Part shown: positions 46,542 to 53,775 of the stretch, piece after piece | How the letters are laid out: each line of letters begins with the position of its first letter | Position numbering within the stretch: position 1 is the stretch's first letter | Source of the DNA: Aggregicoccus sp. 17bor-14 | GTDB lineage: Bacteria; Myxococcota; Myxococcia; Myxococcales; Myxococcaceae | Direction: 5' to 3' | DNA: 64,000 nucleotides | Assembly: GCF_009659535.1 (NCBI RefSeq) | Contig: NZ_VJZZ01000004.1 | Location: 62,001-126,000, forward strand | Notes under the pieces: model-generated | Told to the model about the DNA's origin: nothing | The model's input: only the letters and a program-made list of their open reading frames with translations | The model's database searches: none | Translations under genes and position numbers: made by a program

Positions 46542-46889
46542 CTAGTCGCCGGTGCCCCACTCCGACTCGAGCGCCGCGCGCACGTCCGCGGTGAAGCCGC
46601 CCAGCAGCTGCCGCCCCGTGTCCACCAGGGGCCTGCGCACGTGGTTCGGGTTCTCGGCGAGGTGGCGCGCGAGCGCCTCGTCCGGGATCTCGGCCAGCTC
46701 CTTGCGGCGCTTGGGCGCGACGAGCTCGCGCACGCCGCCGATGCGCTCAGCGAGCGCGCGCAGCTCGGCCTCCGTCAGGGGCTGCTTCATCAGCTCCCGG
46801 ACCGTGTGGGGCACCTGCTTGTGCGCGAGAAACTCCCGCGCTGACTTGCAGCCCGTTCAACCGTTCTTGACGTAGAGCGTGGTCGCCAT
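46542..46889 (-). CDS. ArsC/Spx-family selenoprotein with in-frame UGA (Sec11)
   Basis: From ATG 46887-46889 the minus strand reads ten codons (MATTLYVKNG), then TGA at 46857-46859, then 'TGCKSAREFLAHKQVPHTV' and on without another stop to TAG 46542-46544, 115 residues in all. ArsC/Spx proteins have 'LY....C..C..A..(F/W)L' at this exact place, so UGA stands where the first redox Cys belongs, giving U11-x-x-C14. Further down, 'ENPNHVRRPLVDTGRQLLGGF' matches the family's cis-Pro region. A SECIS-like hairpin follows the UGA. I read it as selenocysteine in a thiol-redox protein; a nonsense mutation is the alternative. A GTG at 46814 would start a form lacking the active site. No clear ribosome site precedes the ATG. 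Confidence 0.8.
46823..46841 (-). promoter_or_regulatory. Candidate bacterial SECIS hairpin
   Basis: Starting 16 nt after the UGA, the RNA can form stem GCGCG/CGCGC around a 9-nt loop GGAGUUUCU. The loop begins 21 nt after UGA with G at its first two positions. A stem, a small apical loop with an early G, and a 16-37 nt distance are the known features of bacterial SECIS elements read by SelB. Inner A-U and G-C pairs with a GG bulge are an alternative fold. Confidence 0.6.
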
Positions 46890-47031
46890 GGGGTCGCGGG
46901 TCTAGCAGGCGGGCGCCCGCGGCTCAATCTCCGTGTAGGAGGCCAGGCAGGGCTTGCACGCCGGGGCGTTCGCGGGTCTTCTTCGCCCCCGCCGCGGCCC
47001 GTCGCCGTGGCCCCTCCCGCCGATTCTCCGC

Positions 47032-47583
47032 ATGGACACCGCCGTCAACAGCCGTGAGTACCGGGTCCTGTTCTTCTGCCCGGCCGCGAGTGCGCACGAG
47101 AAGCGCCTCGAGGCGCCCGTGCGCCGCCTGCTCTCGCGCATCGAGGGCCCGCCCGCGGAGCTCGCGCCGGTGTCCGGGGGCGCGGAGATCAAGGCGGGCG
47201 GCTGGCACGCCTACGAGGTGCGCTCCACCTCCGAGCGCTCGGCGGCGCACGCGCTCGCGGCGTACGTGGCCGAGGTCACCTGCGCCATCGCCGCGGAGCT
47301 GGACGCGGAGGTGCTGGGGCTCTACGTGGACGTGGAGAGCGACGGGGCGCGCCTGTGCCGCTGCGGCCCCGCCGAGGGCCCCGAGACCTTCGCCGGCCGC
47401 CGCGAGCCGGTGCTGCTGCGCGCCGGCGAGTGGCTGGGGCTGCCGGCCACCGCCCTCACCGAGCTGTTCGCGATCGAGGCGGACGAGGAGACGGACGCGG
47501 ACGACCGCTTCGTCGAGGAGAAGCTCAAGGAGGCCCGGGCGCTGATGCAGCGCTACCGCGACGCCCGGCGCGAGCGCTCATGA
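47032..47583 (+). CDS. Unknown 183-residue protein upstream of a DTW-domain gene
   Basis: This soluble, acidic protein ('EYRVLFFCPAASAHEKRLEA' near the start, 'FAIEADEETDADDRFVEEKL' near the end) has no signal peptide or membrane helix. No family is recognised. Codon bias is that of a real gene. Its stop overlaps the ATG of the DTW-domain gene (ATGA), so the two are made together. A role in RNA modification would be guesswork. Confidence 0.75.
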   Translation: MDTAVNSREYRVLFFCPAASAHEKRLEAPVRRLLSRIEGPPAELAPVSGGAEIKAGGWHAYEVRSTSERSAAHALAAYVAEVTCAIAAELDAEVLGLYVDVESDGARLCRCGPAEGPETFAGRREPVLLRAGEWLGLPATALTELFAIEADEETDADDRFVEEKLKEARALMQRYRDARRERS

Positions 47584-48575: not shown

Positions 48576-49937
48576 ATGAAGCTGCCCATCTACATGGACA
48601 ACAACGCCACCACGCCGCTCGACCCGCGCGTGCTGGAGGCCATGCTGCCGTACCTGCGCGAGGACTTCGGCAACGCGGCGAGCCGCAACCACGCCTTCGG
48701 CTGGAAGGCCGAGGCCGCGGTGGAGAAGGCGCGCAAGCAGGTGGCGGCGCTCATCGGGGCGTCCGACAAGGAGATCGTCTTCACCTCGGGCGCCACCGAG
48801 AGCGACAACCTCGCCATCAAGGGCGTGGTGGAGTTCTACCGCTCCAAGGGCGACCACATCATCACCCTGAAGACCGAGCACAAGGCGGTGCTGGACACCT
48901 GCAAGCGCCTGGAGCGCGTGCGCCAGGAGCGCCTGGACGAGCTGAAGATGCTGCGGCTCGCGCAGCTGAGCGGCCAGGACGTGACCCAGGACAACCTCGC
49001 CGAGCTCAGCCTCAAGCACGGCATCGAGGGGGACGAGACCTACCGCAAGTGGGCGGAGCTGCCCACGGGCGGCGCGCGCGTGACCTACCTGGACGTGGAG
49101 CAGGACGGCCGGGTGAGCCTCGAGAAGCTCGAGGCGGCGATGACCGAGCGCACCATCCTCGTGTCCATCATGCACGGCAACAACGAGATCGGCGTGCTGC
49201 AGCCCGTCGCCGAGATCGGCGCGCTGTGCCGCAAGAAGGGCATCCTCTTCCACTGCGACGCGGTGCAGAGCGTGGGCAAGGTCCCCTTCAACGTGGACGA
49301 GTTCAAGGTGGACCTGGTCTCCATGAGCGGCCACAAGATGTACGGCCCCAAGGGCGTGGGCGCGCTCTACGTGCGCCGCAAGCCGCGCGTGCGCATCGCC
49401 CCCATCATCGACGGCGGCGGCCACGAGCGCGGCATGCGCTCGGGCACCCTGAACGTGGCCTCCATCGTGGGCTTCGGCGCCGCGGCCGAGATTGCGCAGC
49501 AGGACATGGCCGCGGAGAGCGCGAAGACCTACCGCCTGCGCGAGCGGCTGCGCACCGGCATCATGGAGCAGCTGGACATGGTGACGGTGAACGGCAGCCT
49601 CGAGCACCGGCTGCCGGGCAACCTCAACATCTCCTTCGCCTTCGTCGAGGGCGAGGCGCTGATGATGGCGATCAAGGACGTGGCGGTGAGCAGCGGCTCC
49701 GCCTGCACCTCGGCCTCGCTCGAGCCCAGCTACGTGCTGCGCGCCTGCGGCGTCGAGGAGGACATGGCGCACAGCTCCATCCGCTTCGGCATCGGGCGCT
49801 TCAACACCGAGGAGGAGGTGGACTACGTCATCCGCCTCATGGTGGACAAGGTGCGGCGCCTGCGCGAGATGAGCCCGCTGTACGAGATGGCCAAGGAAGG
49901 CATCGACCTCAAGAGCATCGAGTGGACGGCGCACTAG
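48576..49937 (+). CDS. iscS: Cysteine desulfurase with an internal insertion
   Basis: IscS takes sulfur from cysteine, via PLP, for Fe-S clusters and tRNA thiolation. The 453 residues align well with IscS ('[19 protein letters not shown]', '[16 protein letters not shown]'), with PLP-Lys254 ('[16 protein letters not shown]') and persulfide Cys377 ('[19 protein letters not shown]'). E. coli IscS has 404 residues with Lys206 and Cys328. The extra 48-49 residues sit at about 113-165, between '[12 protein letters not shown]' and '[10 protein letters not shown]', and are mainly helical and charged. It is the first gene of the isc operon. Confidence 0.97.
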
Positions 49938-49986
49938 CGCGGCCGCCCCAACCCGCGTTTACGCACACGCATCAGGGAGCAAGACC

Positions 49987-50385
49987 ATGGCTTACAGCGA
50001 CAAGGTCATCGACCACTACGAGAACCCCCGCAACGTGGGGACCCTGGACAAGGCGGACCCGAACGTGGGCACCGGCCTGGTGGGCGCGCCCGCCTGCGGC
50101 GACGTGATGCGCCTGCAGCTGAAGATCAGCGACGAGGGCATCATCGAGGACGCGAAGTTCAAGACCTTCGGCTGCGGCTCCGCCATCGCCTCCAGCTCGC
50201 TCGTGACCGAGTGGGTGAAGGGCAAGAGCGTGGACCAGGCCATGGAGATCTCGAACAAGGACGTGGCGCGCGAGCTCGCGCTGCCCCCGGTCAAGATCCA
50301 CTGCTCCGTGCTCGCCGAGGACGCGATCAAGGCGGCCGTGGCGGACTTCAAGAAGAAGCGCGAGGCCCGCGCTCAGAAGGCGTAA
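49987..50385 (+). CDS. iscU: Fe-S cluster scaffold protein IscU
   Basis: This 132-residue scaffold assembles new 2Fe-2S clusters. The three cluster cysteines are visible in 'GAPACGDVMRLQL', 'FGCGSAIASSSLVTEW' and 'PVKIHCSVLAEDAI', together with the Asp after the first Cys and the LPPVK-type motif ('ALPPVK') recognised by HscA. AGGGAGC lies upstream of the ATG. Gap from iscS is 49 bp. Confidence 0.98.
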   Translation: MAYSDKVIDHYENPRNVGTLDKADPNVGTGLVGAPACGDVMRLQLKISDEGIIEDAKFKTFGCGSAIASSSLVTEWVKGKSVDQAMEISNKDVARELALPPVKIHCSVLAEDAIKAAVADFKKKREARAQKA

Positions 50386-50397
50386 GGCGTGCTGACG

Positions 50398-50787
50398 ATG
50401 AGCGACGCGGCGACCCAGACCCAGAGCACTCCCCCGCAGGCCCCGGCCGCGAAGCCCGCACGCGGCGTGAGCGTGGCGGACAGCGCGGTGAAGCGCCTGC
50501 AGCTGCTGCTCGCCGAGCGCAACACGCCCGAGGCCGGCCTGCGCATCGCGGTGAAGGGCGGCGGCTGCTCGGGGCTCGCCTACTCCATGGAGTGGGCGGA
50601 GCGCCCTCGCGAGCGCGACAAGATCTTCGAGCGCGACGGGGTGCGCGTGTTCGTGGACCCCAAGAGCTACCTGTACCTCATCGGCACCGAGCTCGTGTAC
50701 GAGGAGGGGCTGATGGCGAGCGGCTTCAAGCTGCAGAACCCCAACGTCAAGGCGGCGTGCGGCTGCGGCGAGAGCTTCGCGATCTGA
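50398..50787 (+). CDS. iscA: A-type Fe-S carrier IscA
   Basis: This 129-residue A-type carrier has the three conserved cysteines in 'VKGGGCSGLAYSM' and 'AACGCGESF'. The first 25 residues (Ala/Gln/Pro-rich) extend the usual start. I use ATG 50398, which has TAAGG 10 nt upstream at the iscU stop; a GTG at 50389 is the alternative. It delivers clusters to target proteins. Confidence 0.95.
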   Translation: MSDAATQTQSTPPQAPAAKPARGVSVADSAVKRLQLLLAERNTPEAGLRIAVKGGGCSGLAYSMEWAERPRERDKIFERDGVRVFVDPKSYLYLIGTELVYEEGLMASGFKLQNPNVKAACGCGESFAI

Positions 50788-50886
50788 GCCCGGGGGTGGC
50801 TCACGCGCCCCCGTAAGGTTTCGAGGCTCGGCCCGTCTGCAGGGTCGGGCCTCTCGTCTTTGGAGCCCCTGCTCCCGGAGCGACTT

Positions 50887-51528
50887 GTGAAGTGCTGGAA
50901 CTGCCACAGTGACCCGGGCGCGAGCCCCTTCTGCCCCGCCTGCGGGAAGATCGCCGCGCGCCCCGCCGGCGCCACCCACTTCGACGTGTTCGGCCTGCCG
51001 CGCGCCTACGACGTGGACGCGCCGGCGCTCGAGCGCAGCTACCGCGAGCTGAGCCTCAAGCTGCACCCGGACCGCTTCGCACAGGCGGAGGCGAAGGAGC
51101 GCCGGCTCTCGCTCGAGCAGACCACCGCGCTCAACGAGGCCTTCAAGACGCTGAAGGACCCGGTGCGGCGCGCCTTCTACCTGCTCAAGCTGCAGGGCGT
51201 GGACCTGGACCGCGACGACGCGAGCGCGCAGAAGAACATGCCCCTCGACTTCCTCGAGGAGGTGATGGAGCTGCGCGAGGCGCTCGACGAGGCGATGGAG
51301 GCGAAGGACCTCACGCGCGCGCAAGGCATGGCGGTGGACGTGACGGCGCGCCAGAAGGAGGCGCTCGCGCAGGCGGTGGCGGCGCTGCACGCGCTGGGCT
51401 CGGCGCCCGCGGGCAGCGAGGAAGCGGCCGCGGCGCTCACAAAGGCCTCGCATGGGCTCGGACGCGTGAGGTACTTCACGCGCTTCCTCGAGCAGGTGGA
51501 AGCCTTCGAGGAGGAGGCACTGGGCTGA
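50887..51528 (+). CDS. hscB: Fe-S co-chaperone HscB with N-terminal zinc-ribbon
   Basis: HscB is a J-protein that brings IscU to HscA. The 213-residue protein opens with C3-x2-C6...C16-x2-C19 ('[20 protein letters not shown]'), then a J-domain ('[20 protein letters not shown]') with HPD in '[10 protein letters not shown]' (about 53-62), and the C-terminal helical bundle. The N-terminal CxxC pair is known from human HSC20 and some bacteria but is absent in E. coli HscB. Start GTG 50887 has CGGAG 6 nt upstream; the frame stays open to 50860. Confidence 0.95.
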
Positions 51529-51529
51529 C

Positions 51530-53380
51530 ATGAGCAAGAACGGCTATCTGCAGATTCACGACCCGCTCAAGCCCAAGGGCCACGCGGTGGGCATCGACCT
51601 GGGCACCACCAACTCGCTCGTGGCGGCGGTCATCGGCGGCAAGCCCCAGTGCCTGCCCGCGGACGAGGGCGAGGCCCTGCTGCTCCCCTCCGTCGTGCAC
51701 TACGCGAAGGACGGCGGCGTGGTGGTGGGCGCGCGCGCGCGCAGGCTCGCGCCCGAGGCCCCCACGGACACCATCGTCAGCGTGAAGCGCTTCATGGGGC
51801 GCTCGCCGGACGACCCCGAGACCCGCAAGCTGGGCAGCTACCGCTTCATCGAGGGCAGCCACTCCGTGGTGCGCTTCGACGTGGCGGGCGGCCAGCCGGT
51901 GACGCCCATCGAGGTGTCCGGAGAGATCCTGCGCACGCTCAAGCGCCGCGCGGAGAGCCACTTCGCGGGCAAGGTGGAGCAGGCGGTCATCACCGTGCCC
52001 GCCTACTTCGACGACGCCCAGCGCCAGGCCACGAAGGACGCGGGCCGCCTCGCGGGGCTCGAGGTGCTGCGGCTCATCAACGAGCCCACGGCGGCGGCGC
52101 TCGCGTACGGCCTGGACAAGAACAGCCAGGGCACCTTCGCCGTCTACGACCTGGGCGGCGGCACCTTCGACGTCTCCATCCTGAAGCTGGTGGACGGGGT
52201 GTTCGAGGTGAAGAGCACCGGCGGCGACTCGGCGCTCGGCGGCGACGACTTCGACCGCGCCATCGCCGAGCACGTGCTCGAGACCCTGGGCGAGAAGAAG
52301 CCCTCCCCTGCCCTCGTCTCCAAGGCGCTCGCGGCGGCGCGCAGCGCGAAGGAGGCGCTCACCGAGGCGGAGGAGGTGGAGCTTGCGCTCGGCGACGGGC
52401 ACCGCCAGCGCATCACGCGCGCACAGCTGGACGCGTGGATCCAGCCCTACATCCAGCGCACGGGCCTGGTGTGCCGCCGCGCCCTCAAGGACGCGGGCGT
52501 CACGCCGGCGGAGCTGGACGGCGTCATCCTCGTGGGCGGCAGCACCCGCGTGCCCGCGGTGCGCGCGTTCGTGAAGCAGCTGTTCGGCAAGGAGCCGCTC
52601 GGGGACATCGACCCCGACCAGGTGGTGGCGCTGGGCGCCGCGGTGCAGGCGGACCTGCTCACCAACGCGGACCGCGCGGACGAGGTCCTGCTGCTGGACG
52701 TCATCCCGCTCTCGCTGGGGCTGGAGACCATGGGCGGGATCGTGGAGAAGGTCATCCCGCGCAACAGCACCATCCCCACCGCGGCGGCCCAGGTCTTCAC
52801 CACCTTCAAGGACGCGCAGACCGGCCTGGACGTGCACGTGCTGCAGGGGGAGCGCGAGCTGGTCGAGGACTGCCGCAGCCTCGCGCGCTTCCGCCTCTCG
52901 GGGATTCCCGCGATGCCCGCGGGCATGGCGCGCATCGAGGTGCGCTTCCAGGTGGACGCGGACGGCATCCTCAGCGTGAGCGCGCAGGAGCAGAGCACGG
53001 GCGTCACGCAGGCGATCACGGTGAAGCCCAGCCACGGCCTCACCGACGAGGAGATCGAGCGCATGCTGCTCGACTCCATCGAGCACGCGGAGGACGACAT
53101 CCAGGCGCGCCAGCTGCGCGAGCAGCGGGTGGACGCCGAGCGCGTGCTCACCGAGGCCGAGCGCCAGCTCTCCCAGCACGGCGACCTGCTTCAGCCCCAC
53201 GAGCGGCAGCAGATCGACGCCGCCATGGCGCACGTGCGCGAGGTGGCCAAGGGACAGGATCACCTGGCCCTCAAGGAGAGCGTCCACGCGCTGGACGAGA
53301 CGAGCAAGCCCTTCATCGAGCGCGTGATGAACCGCGCCCTCACCCAGGCCGTGAGCGGCCACTCTGTCGAAGAGTACTGA
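51530..53380 (+). CDS. hscA: Hsp70-type Fe-S chaperone HscA
   Basis: HscA is the Hsp70 that drives cluster release from IscU. The 616 residues show the Hsp70 signatures: '[18 protein letters not shown]' (about 22-39), '[20 protein letters not shown]' (about 203-222) and '[20 protein letters not shown]' (about 333-352). The substrate-binding domain follows from about 395. Length equals HscA rather than DnaK (about 640). Its ATG lies 1 bp after the hscB stop. Confidence 0.98.
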
Positions 53381-53397
53381 GCCGAGGAGCCCCGAGC

Positions 53398-53775
53398 GTG
53401 CCCAAGGTCCATTTCAAGAGCCCCCTCAACGACGTGACGGTGGAGGTGCCCGCGGGCACCACCCTGCTGGACGCCGCCGAGCAGTGCGGCGCCCAGGTGG
53501 GCCACAGCTGCGGCGGGGTGTGCGCCTGCTCCACCTGCCACGTGTGGGTGCGCAAGGGCCTGGAGTCGCTGAGCGAGCAGAGCGACGCGGAGATGGACCG
53601 GCTGGACCAGGCGTTCGACGTGCGCCCCTACTCGCGGCTCGCCTGCCAGTCGGAGGCCGGGAATGAGGAGCTCCTGGTGGAGATTACCGAGGAGTCCCTC
53701 ACCGCGTTCATGGACGAGAACCCGGCGCTGCGGCACCAGCTGGAGGCCGAGGGAAAGTGGCCGCTCAAGAAGTAG
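53398..53775 (+). CDS. fdx: isc-type 2Fe-2S ferredoxin
   Basis: This 125-residue adrenodoxin-type ferredoxin donates electrons for cluster assembly. Cluster cysteines follow the pattern C-x5-C-x2-C in 'GHSCGGVCACSTCHVWV' (about 38-54), plus a fourth Cys in 'YSRLACQSEAG' (about 80-90). Start is GTG 53398 with GAGGAG about 8 nt upstream. It is the last gene of the isc operon. The C-terminus ('QLEAEGKWPLKK') is a little longer than in E. coli Fdx. Confidence 0.96.
   Translation: MPKVHFKSPLNDVTVEVPAGTTLLDAAEQCGAQVGHSCGGVCACSTCHVWVRKGLESLSEQSDAEMDRLDQAFDVRPYSRLACQSEAGNEELLVEITEESLTAFMDENPALRHQLEAEGKWPLKK

Follow-up and report, generated by a model that had tools for sequence, protein, structure and literature searches.

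A probable myxobacterial selenoprotein of Spx/ArsC-type fold with an in-frame UGA at its redox site

The gene and its surroundings

The window (the whole stretch of 64,000 nucleotides that was analysed) carries on its minus strand, from 46889 down to 46542, a frame that starts with ATG, has its sole internal stop, a UGA, at codon 11 and is then open to a TAG, for a length of 115 residues. The translated product is MATTLYVKNG-UGA-TGCKSAREFLAHK...NPNHVRRPLVDTGRQLLGGF...WGTGD-TAG. The preliminary description of this DNA had proposed the frame as a selenoprotein gene whose active site a simple gene call misses; both the frame and the mechanical open reading frame of 90 aa that begins at GTG 46814 were found exactly as it gave them. 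The features of the locus are listed here.

46542..46889, minus strand: predicted selenoprotein gene of 115 codons with UGA as Sec at codon 11, from the frame and its homologs; TAG at 46542-46544
46857..46859, minus strand: codon 11, a UGA predicted to specify selenocysteine as the first residue of U-T-G-C; TGA in all 20 members of the family
46848..46850, minus strand: codon of Cys14, the presumed resolving residue of the UxxC site; invariant and aligned with the second Cys of the Spx CxxC
46823..46841, minus strand: predicted bacterial SECIS hairpin GCGCGGGA-GUU-UCUCGCGC with an 8-bp stem and its loop at 46831-46833, from conservation and bSECIS criteria
46812..46814, minus strand: GTG (Val26), start of the mechanical gene call; not a conserved start
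46632..46637, minus strand: R85-R86 of the V-R-R-P motif, both invariant; in alignments, R86 matches the Arg in R-P-I of ArsC and the RRP motif of Spx
46899..46904, minus strand: -10-like hexamer TAGACC, 9 nt before the ATG; points to a putative leaderless transcript

Conservation extends to the residues encoded upstream of the UGA (with K8 and G10 invariant in the alignment), so the reading frame is in use before as well as after this codon. The GTG at 46814 (codon 26), on the other hand, is not conserved, and relatives have other residues there.

For the promoter region, we compared 16 loci, one per close group. A strict TATAAT-like hexamer stood 6-9 nt before the ATG in 8 of them and at other offsets from 0 to 29 in none, while shuffled sequences gave a mean of 0.26 and a maximum of 3/16. 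Shine-Dalgarno sequences were mostly absent from the family loci. From the position of the hexamer and the scarcity of Shine-Dalgarno sequences, it is reasonable to infer a leaderless mRNA for the selenoprotein gene. A -10-like hexamer was observed at the same place in most members (e.g., L018-L031, L053 and L061).

The divergent neighbour at 47032-47583 (plus strand; MDTAVNSREYRVLFFC...) adjoins the selenoprotein gene in Archangium too, and it is the sole neighbour shared with Archangium. Past the divergent genes lies, by sequence, an Isc-type iron-sulfur cluster set (48576-53775, plus strand) with IscS, IscU, IscA, HscB, HscA and a ferredoxin; the Archangium loci read showed no such set next to the gene. 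The gene neighbourhoods read held no conserved operon and no pointer to a pathway or substrate. In one MAG (L106:899-1222, on G005:C453), the selenoprotein gene is positioned antisense inside an apparent NADH-quinone oxidoreductase gene cluster.

Conservation of the UGA and of the SECIS hairpin; the selenocysteine machinery

A protein-to-genome search of 144 genomes (the host and its relatives) gave a match in 15, the host included; the 14 others were 48-72% identical to the window protein. Each of the 15 matching frames was interrupted once, by TGA alone, and once aligned the TGA fell at the same codon in all. By this comparison, the in-frame UGA is not a product of chance. When 84,980 species genomes were scanned with a profile, 14 loci resulted, each with TGA at codon 11. 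The source records were without exception myxobacterial or ‘Deltaproteobacteria’, among them Archangium violaceum Cb vi76 and A. lansinium; several of these loci came from the same genomes as in the 144-genome search. The contig scan returned nothing with the single sequence as query and returned family loci with the alignment as query. Its peptide patterns, GCx[KS]AREFLA and L[VI]APKR[RK][AGK]E, are both outside codon 11, so that Cys forms bearing them would have been retrieved; none was found among the 84,980 species genomes. A plasmid search retrieved Spx-like proteins alone, at 26-33% identity.

For the codon analysis we used a set of 20 sequences, 40-72% identical to the window protein, in which codon counts are not independent as six of the sequences came from one genus. 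UGA was present at codon 11 in 20/20, and a Cys codon, another stop or a frameshift in 0/20. The preliminary description had named homologs with Cys at position 11, or UGA at this codon in related myxobacteria, as support. The UGA part was borne out in full, but no Cys ortholog appeared: the usual Cys/Sec pairing was seen solely with distant relatives, at 26-32% identity. Random stops or frameshifts in close relatives, which it had named as evidence against a selenoprotein, were looked for and not seen.

Across 195 genomes of the phylum, the family profile gave at least 166 bits to each of the 15 UGA members, while the next best proteins, which are Cys-containing paralogs of another ArsC-type group, scored at most 57 bits. 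We delimited the family by this gap (166 vs 57 bits) because a phylogeny with other ArsC-type proteins was unreliable, with outgroup branches of 1-3 changes per site attaching inside the family. The presence of the gene is patchy; it was found in all six Archangium-group genomes, the host genus, two further genera of Myxococcaceae and, within the order, part of another family. Judged from these searches, the family is a UGA-only subfamily, confined to Myxococcota among the genomes searched.

The conservation extends to the nucleotides downstream of the UGA, where GCGCGGGAGTTTCTCGCGC, starting 15 nt past it, is nearly invariant across the family. The mean synonymous entropy of codons 17-22 (A-R-E-F-L-A) was 0.18 bits compared to 1.05 bits in 29 other conserved codons (Mann-Whitney p 1e-4, indicative only, since the sequences are related). 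Phe20 is coded by TTT in 18/20 sequences, whereas the other Phe codons of the family are TTC in 28/32 and TTT in 4/32 cases (Fisher p 3e-8, again indicative only for related sequences); for example, Phe99 is TTC in 17/20. An 8-bp stem with a GUU triloop is predicted in most members and in the consensus, with 15 nt from the UGA to the stem and 23 nt to the loop. A covariation count used 20 sequences, 18 from the family and two NF041106-type UGA genes (discussed below); 98.8% of cells were paired and two pairs had a double compensatory change, A-U to G-C in L052 and C-G to U-A in L032; this level was matched by 4/500 shuffles. The fold energy of the single sequence was moderately unusual (z -2.1; 7/200 shuffles as good).

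Published criteria for bacterial SECIS elements (PMC13188914) are a loop of 3-9 nt, an upper stem of 4-16 bp, an MFE of at most -7.5 kcal/mol, a G within the first two nucleotides of the loop (with G or U mostly next) and 16-37 nt from UGA to loop. The window hairpin, with its GUU loop, 8 bp, 23 nt and about -13 kcal/mol, lies within all of these limits. Its core GGGAGUUUCUC is common to the window family and the NF041106-type UGA genes L032 and L062. Near-invariant and common to a separate UxxC subfamily, the hairpin could serve as a seed for SECIS searches in high-GC Myxococcota.

The host genome (6.9 Mb, 99.95% complete) has all the components for which a search had been suggested, namely selA, selB, selD and tRNA-Sec. 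One tRNA-Sec is above the Rfam cut-off (75.1 bits; anticodon TCA by ARAGORN), SelB scored 326.9 bits against a cut-off of 242, SelA 567 bits and SelD 382.5 bits. Family searches for further selenoprotein genes of this genome showed that SelD itself has an internal UGA (SHCAG-U-AAKL), as have two formate dehydrogenases (QARI-U-HSS).

G000:C4:375067-375993 (L064): UGA-containing SelD
G000:C24:68384-70084 (L069) and G000:C7:327525-329066 (L070): UGA-containing formate dehydrogenases

On all genomic criteria, this is a selenocysteine-using organism. The formate dehydrogenase UGAs are followed by GGUGCCC-GGUCU-GGGCAUC hairpins with a GGUCU loop. The exact SECIS pattern of the window gene, searched genome-wide, had that gene as its single match, so the other selenoprotein genes of the genome use different hairpins. 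SelA was above the cut-off in 15/15 ortholog-carrying genomes, which is weak evidence since 122 of the 144 genomes have SelA. Taken with the conservation of codon 11 and of the hairpin, we consider it very likely that the window gene encodes a selenoprotein in which UGA 11 specifies selenocysteine, within a redox site Sec11-T-G-Cys14.

Fold and family placement

The AlphaFold2 model, built with a 15-row alignment, had a pLDDT of 89.6. Its best Foldseek match was Spx 3gfk (E 8e-9, TM 0.78), followed by ArsC-related proteins and ArsC; phmmer also gave a match to Spx (E 2e-8). The Pfam ArsC model PF03960 scored 24.2 against a cut-off of 24, and 15/15 members matched it at E <= 0.001. These results agree with the ArsC/Spx fold that had been proposed from the translation, and in the alignment the UGA stands where Spx and the Cys paralogs have their first Cys, the first redox cysteine, as had also been proposed. 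Besides K8 and G10, the invariant residues of the alignment include U11, G13, C14, A17, R18, F20, L21, R31, K35, P37, R85, R86, P87, G98 and F99.

More specific models scored well below their cut-offs: 42.8 vs 75 bits for TIGR01617 (Spx/MgsR), about 42 bits (42.1) vs 123 for NF002459 (Spx) and 23.9 vs 106 for TIGR00014 (ArsC). On NF041106, the window protein had 28.4 bits against a cut-off of 85, L052 and L061 had 22.7 and 22.0, and other members had 23-30 among those listed, which is no better than the myxobacterial Cys paralogs. As a positive control, the true member L062 scored 90.1 bits. Because the scores are far below the NF041106, Spx/MgsR and ArsC cut-offs, we regard the subfamily as uncatalogued. 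Current annotation models will probably shorten or overlook such a gene.

Selenoproteins of the ArsC superfamily, a kind that the preliminary description had also mentioned, are already on record with UxxS (PMC1088965) and with UxxC (PMC2398784, cd03032; PMC13188914, NF041106). It was right on the kind of protein, and its ‘ArsC-like selenoprotein’ can be refined to a separate subfamily outside NF041106. The open literature searched had no myxobacterial ArsC/Spx selenoprotein. The NF041106 proteins (ArsC_rel_Se_1, ‘Arsenate reductase-like protein’; PMC13188914) resemble the window family in fold class and in Sec as the first residue of UxxC, but differ in having R-A-P in place of R-R-P and no APKRR segment. 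‘Arsenate reductase 2’ of the ocean survey (cd03032; PMC2398784) is likewise an ArsC-superfamily selenoprotein with UxxC; it is known as metagenomic reads, which we compared by description only, and it may be the same or a different branch. Spx of Bacillus subtilis (PDB 3gfk/1z3e) has the fold, the CxxC position and the RRP motif in common with the window protein, which differs in having Sec for Cys, a shorter middle segment and scores below both Spx cut-offs. The glutaredoxin-coupled ArsC (TIGR00014; E. coli ArsC, PDB 1i9d) is alike in fold and in the position of the nucleophile, while two of its three catalytic Arg are not retained in the window protein, which is also far below the family cut-off.

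On these comparisons, with ‘Arsenate reductase 2’ taken by description only, the window family is a new subfamily of the known ArsC-like selenoprotein kind and no new category. It adds a well-supported selenoprotein subfamily for myxobacteria, named Archangium species included.

Proposed function and alternative explanations

We propose, at a rough probability of 0.65, that the protein is a cytosolic Sec-based thiol/selenol oxidoreductase, with the presumed substrate and reductant given here. SelB with Sec-tRNA-Sec would bind the hairpin 15 nt downstream, and the ribosome would decode UGA 11 as Sec. The product would fold as a Spx/ArsC-type thioredoxin-fold protein with the U-T-G-C redox site at the start of helix 1. 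The Sec11 selenolate would then attack an oxidised substrate (a disulfide, a peroxide or similar), Cys14 would resolve this adduct by forming a selenenylsulfide, which some thiol system would presumably re-reduce. As all members have UGA and Spx-like Cys relatives exist, the family makes a clean test case for the benefit of Sec in a CxxC oxidoreductase.

The main functional rival is a Spx-like redox switch on RNA polymerase, where the selenoprotein would be a transcription regulator and oxidation of Sec11-Cys14 would alter binding of the RNA polymerase alpha subunit. In its favour, Spx proteins lead both the sequence and the fold matches and the RRP motif is kept, but the scores on TIGR01617 and NF002459 speak against a Spx-like regulator. 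Spx, moreover, is best known from Bacillota, and Sec is usually selected for catalysis over switching; we therefore think a regulator of this type improbable. The chance is still smaller for an ArsC-type, glutaredoxin-coupled arsenate reductase with selenocysteine. The catalytic Arg of R773 ArsC are residues 60, 94 and 107. Alignment to the ArsC-like protein L045 puts R86 at the place of Arg94, but Ala58 and Phe99 at the two remaining positions; K60/R61 close by could shift this alignment. With one of the three catalytic Arg kept, arsenate reduction is not the favoured function and appears unlikely. The Pfam ArsC match just above its cut-off, the Sec at the position of the ArsC catalytic Cys and the precedent of ArsC selenoproteins (PMC1088965, PMC2398784) would fit such an enzyme; the TIGR00014 score would not, and we recognised no adjacent ars genes, either in the window or at the other loci read.

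If the UGA were instead an ordinary stop, the locus would be a pseudogene or the real gene would start at GTG 46814, where the mechanical 90 aa ORF begins. That ORF has to be set against a UGA kept at the same codon in every family member without other disruption, codons conserved upstream of the UGA and not at the GTG, a SECIS hairpin constrained at synonymous sites and a complete Sec machinery. The pseudogene and GTG-start readings were rejected on conservation, and we see scarcely any chance for either. Returning to the Sec-based oxidoreductase, a bolder and rather doubtful extension is that the family exists in the Sec form alone, as an enzyme of Spx/ArsC fold that is specific to Myxococcota and chemically dependent on selenium, which would lead lineages to lose the gene rather than swap Sec for Cys; its mRNA would probably be leaderless, with Sec 11 codons from the 5' end.

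Other candidate UGA genes of ArsC type were observed along the way. The protein L045 (G135:C18:13443-13751), from a genome of the same class, is near true ArsC (TIGR00014 95.4 vs cut-off 106) and has UGA at the catalytic Cys, in UxxC; it is possibly a separate selenocysteine arsenate reductase. L032 (G110:C191) and L062 (Planctomycetota MAG JARGOJ010000696.1) are UxxC proteins of the NF041106 type, and L034/L111 is a Cys form of it. Two further UGA-interrupted ArsC-type frames, G183:C20:54755-55063 and G183:C8:861428-861727, were seen in one genome of the phylum.
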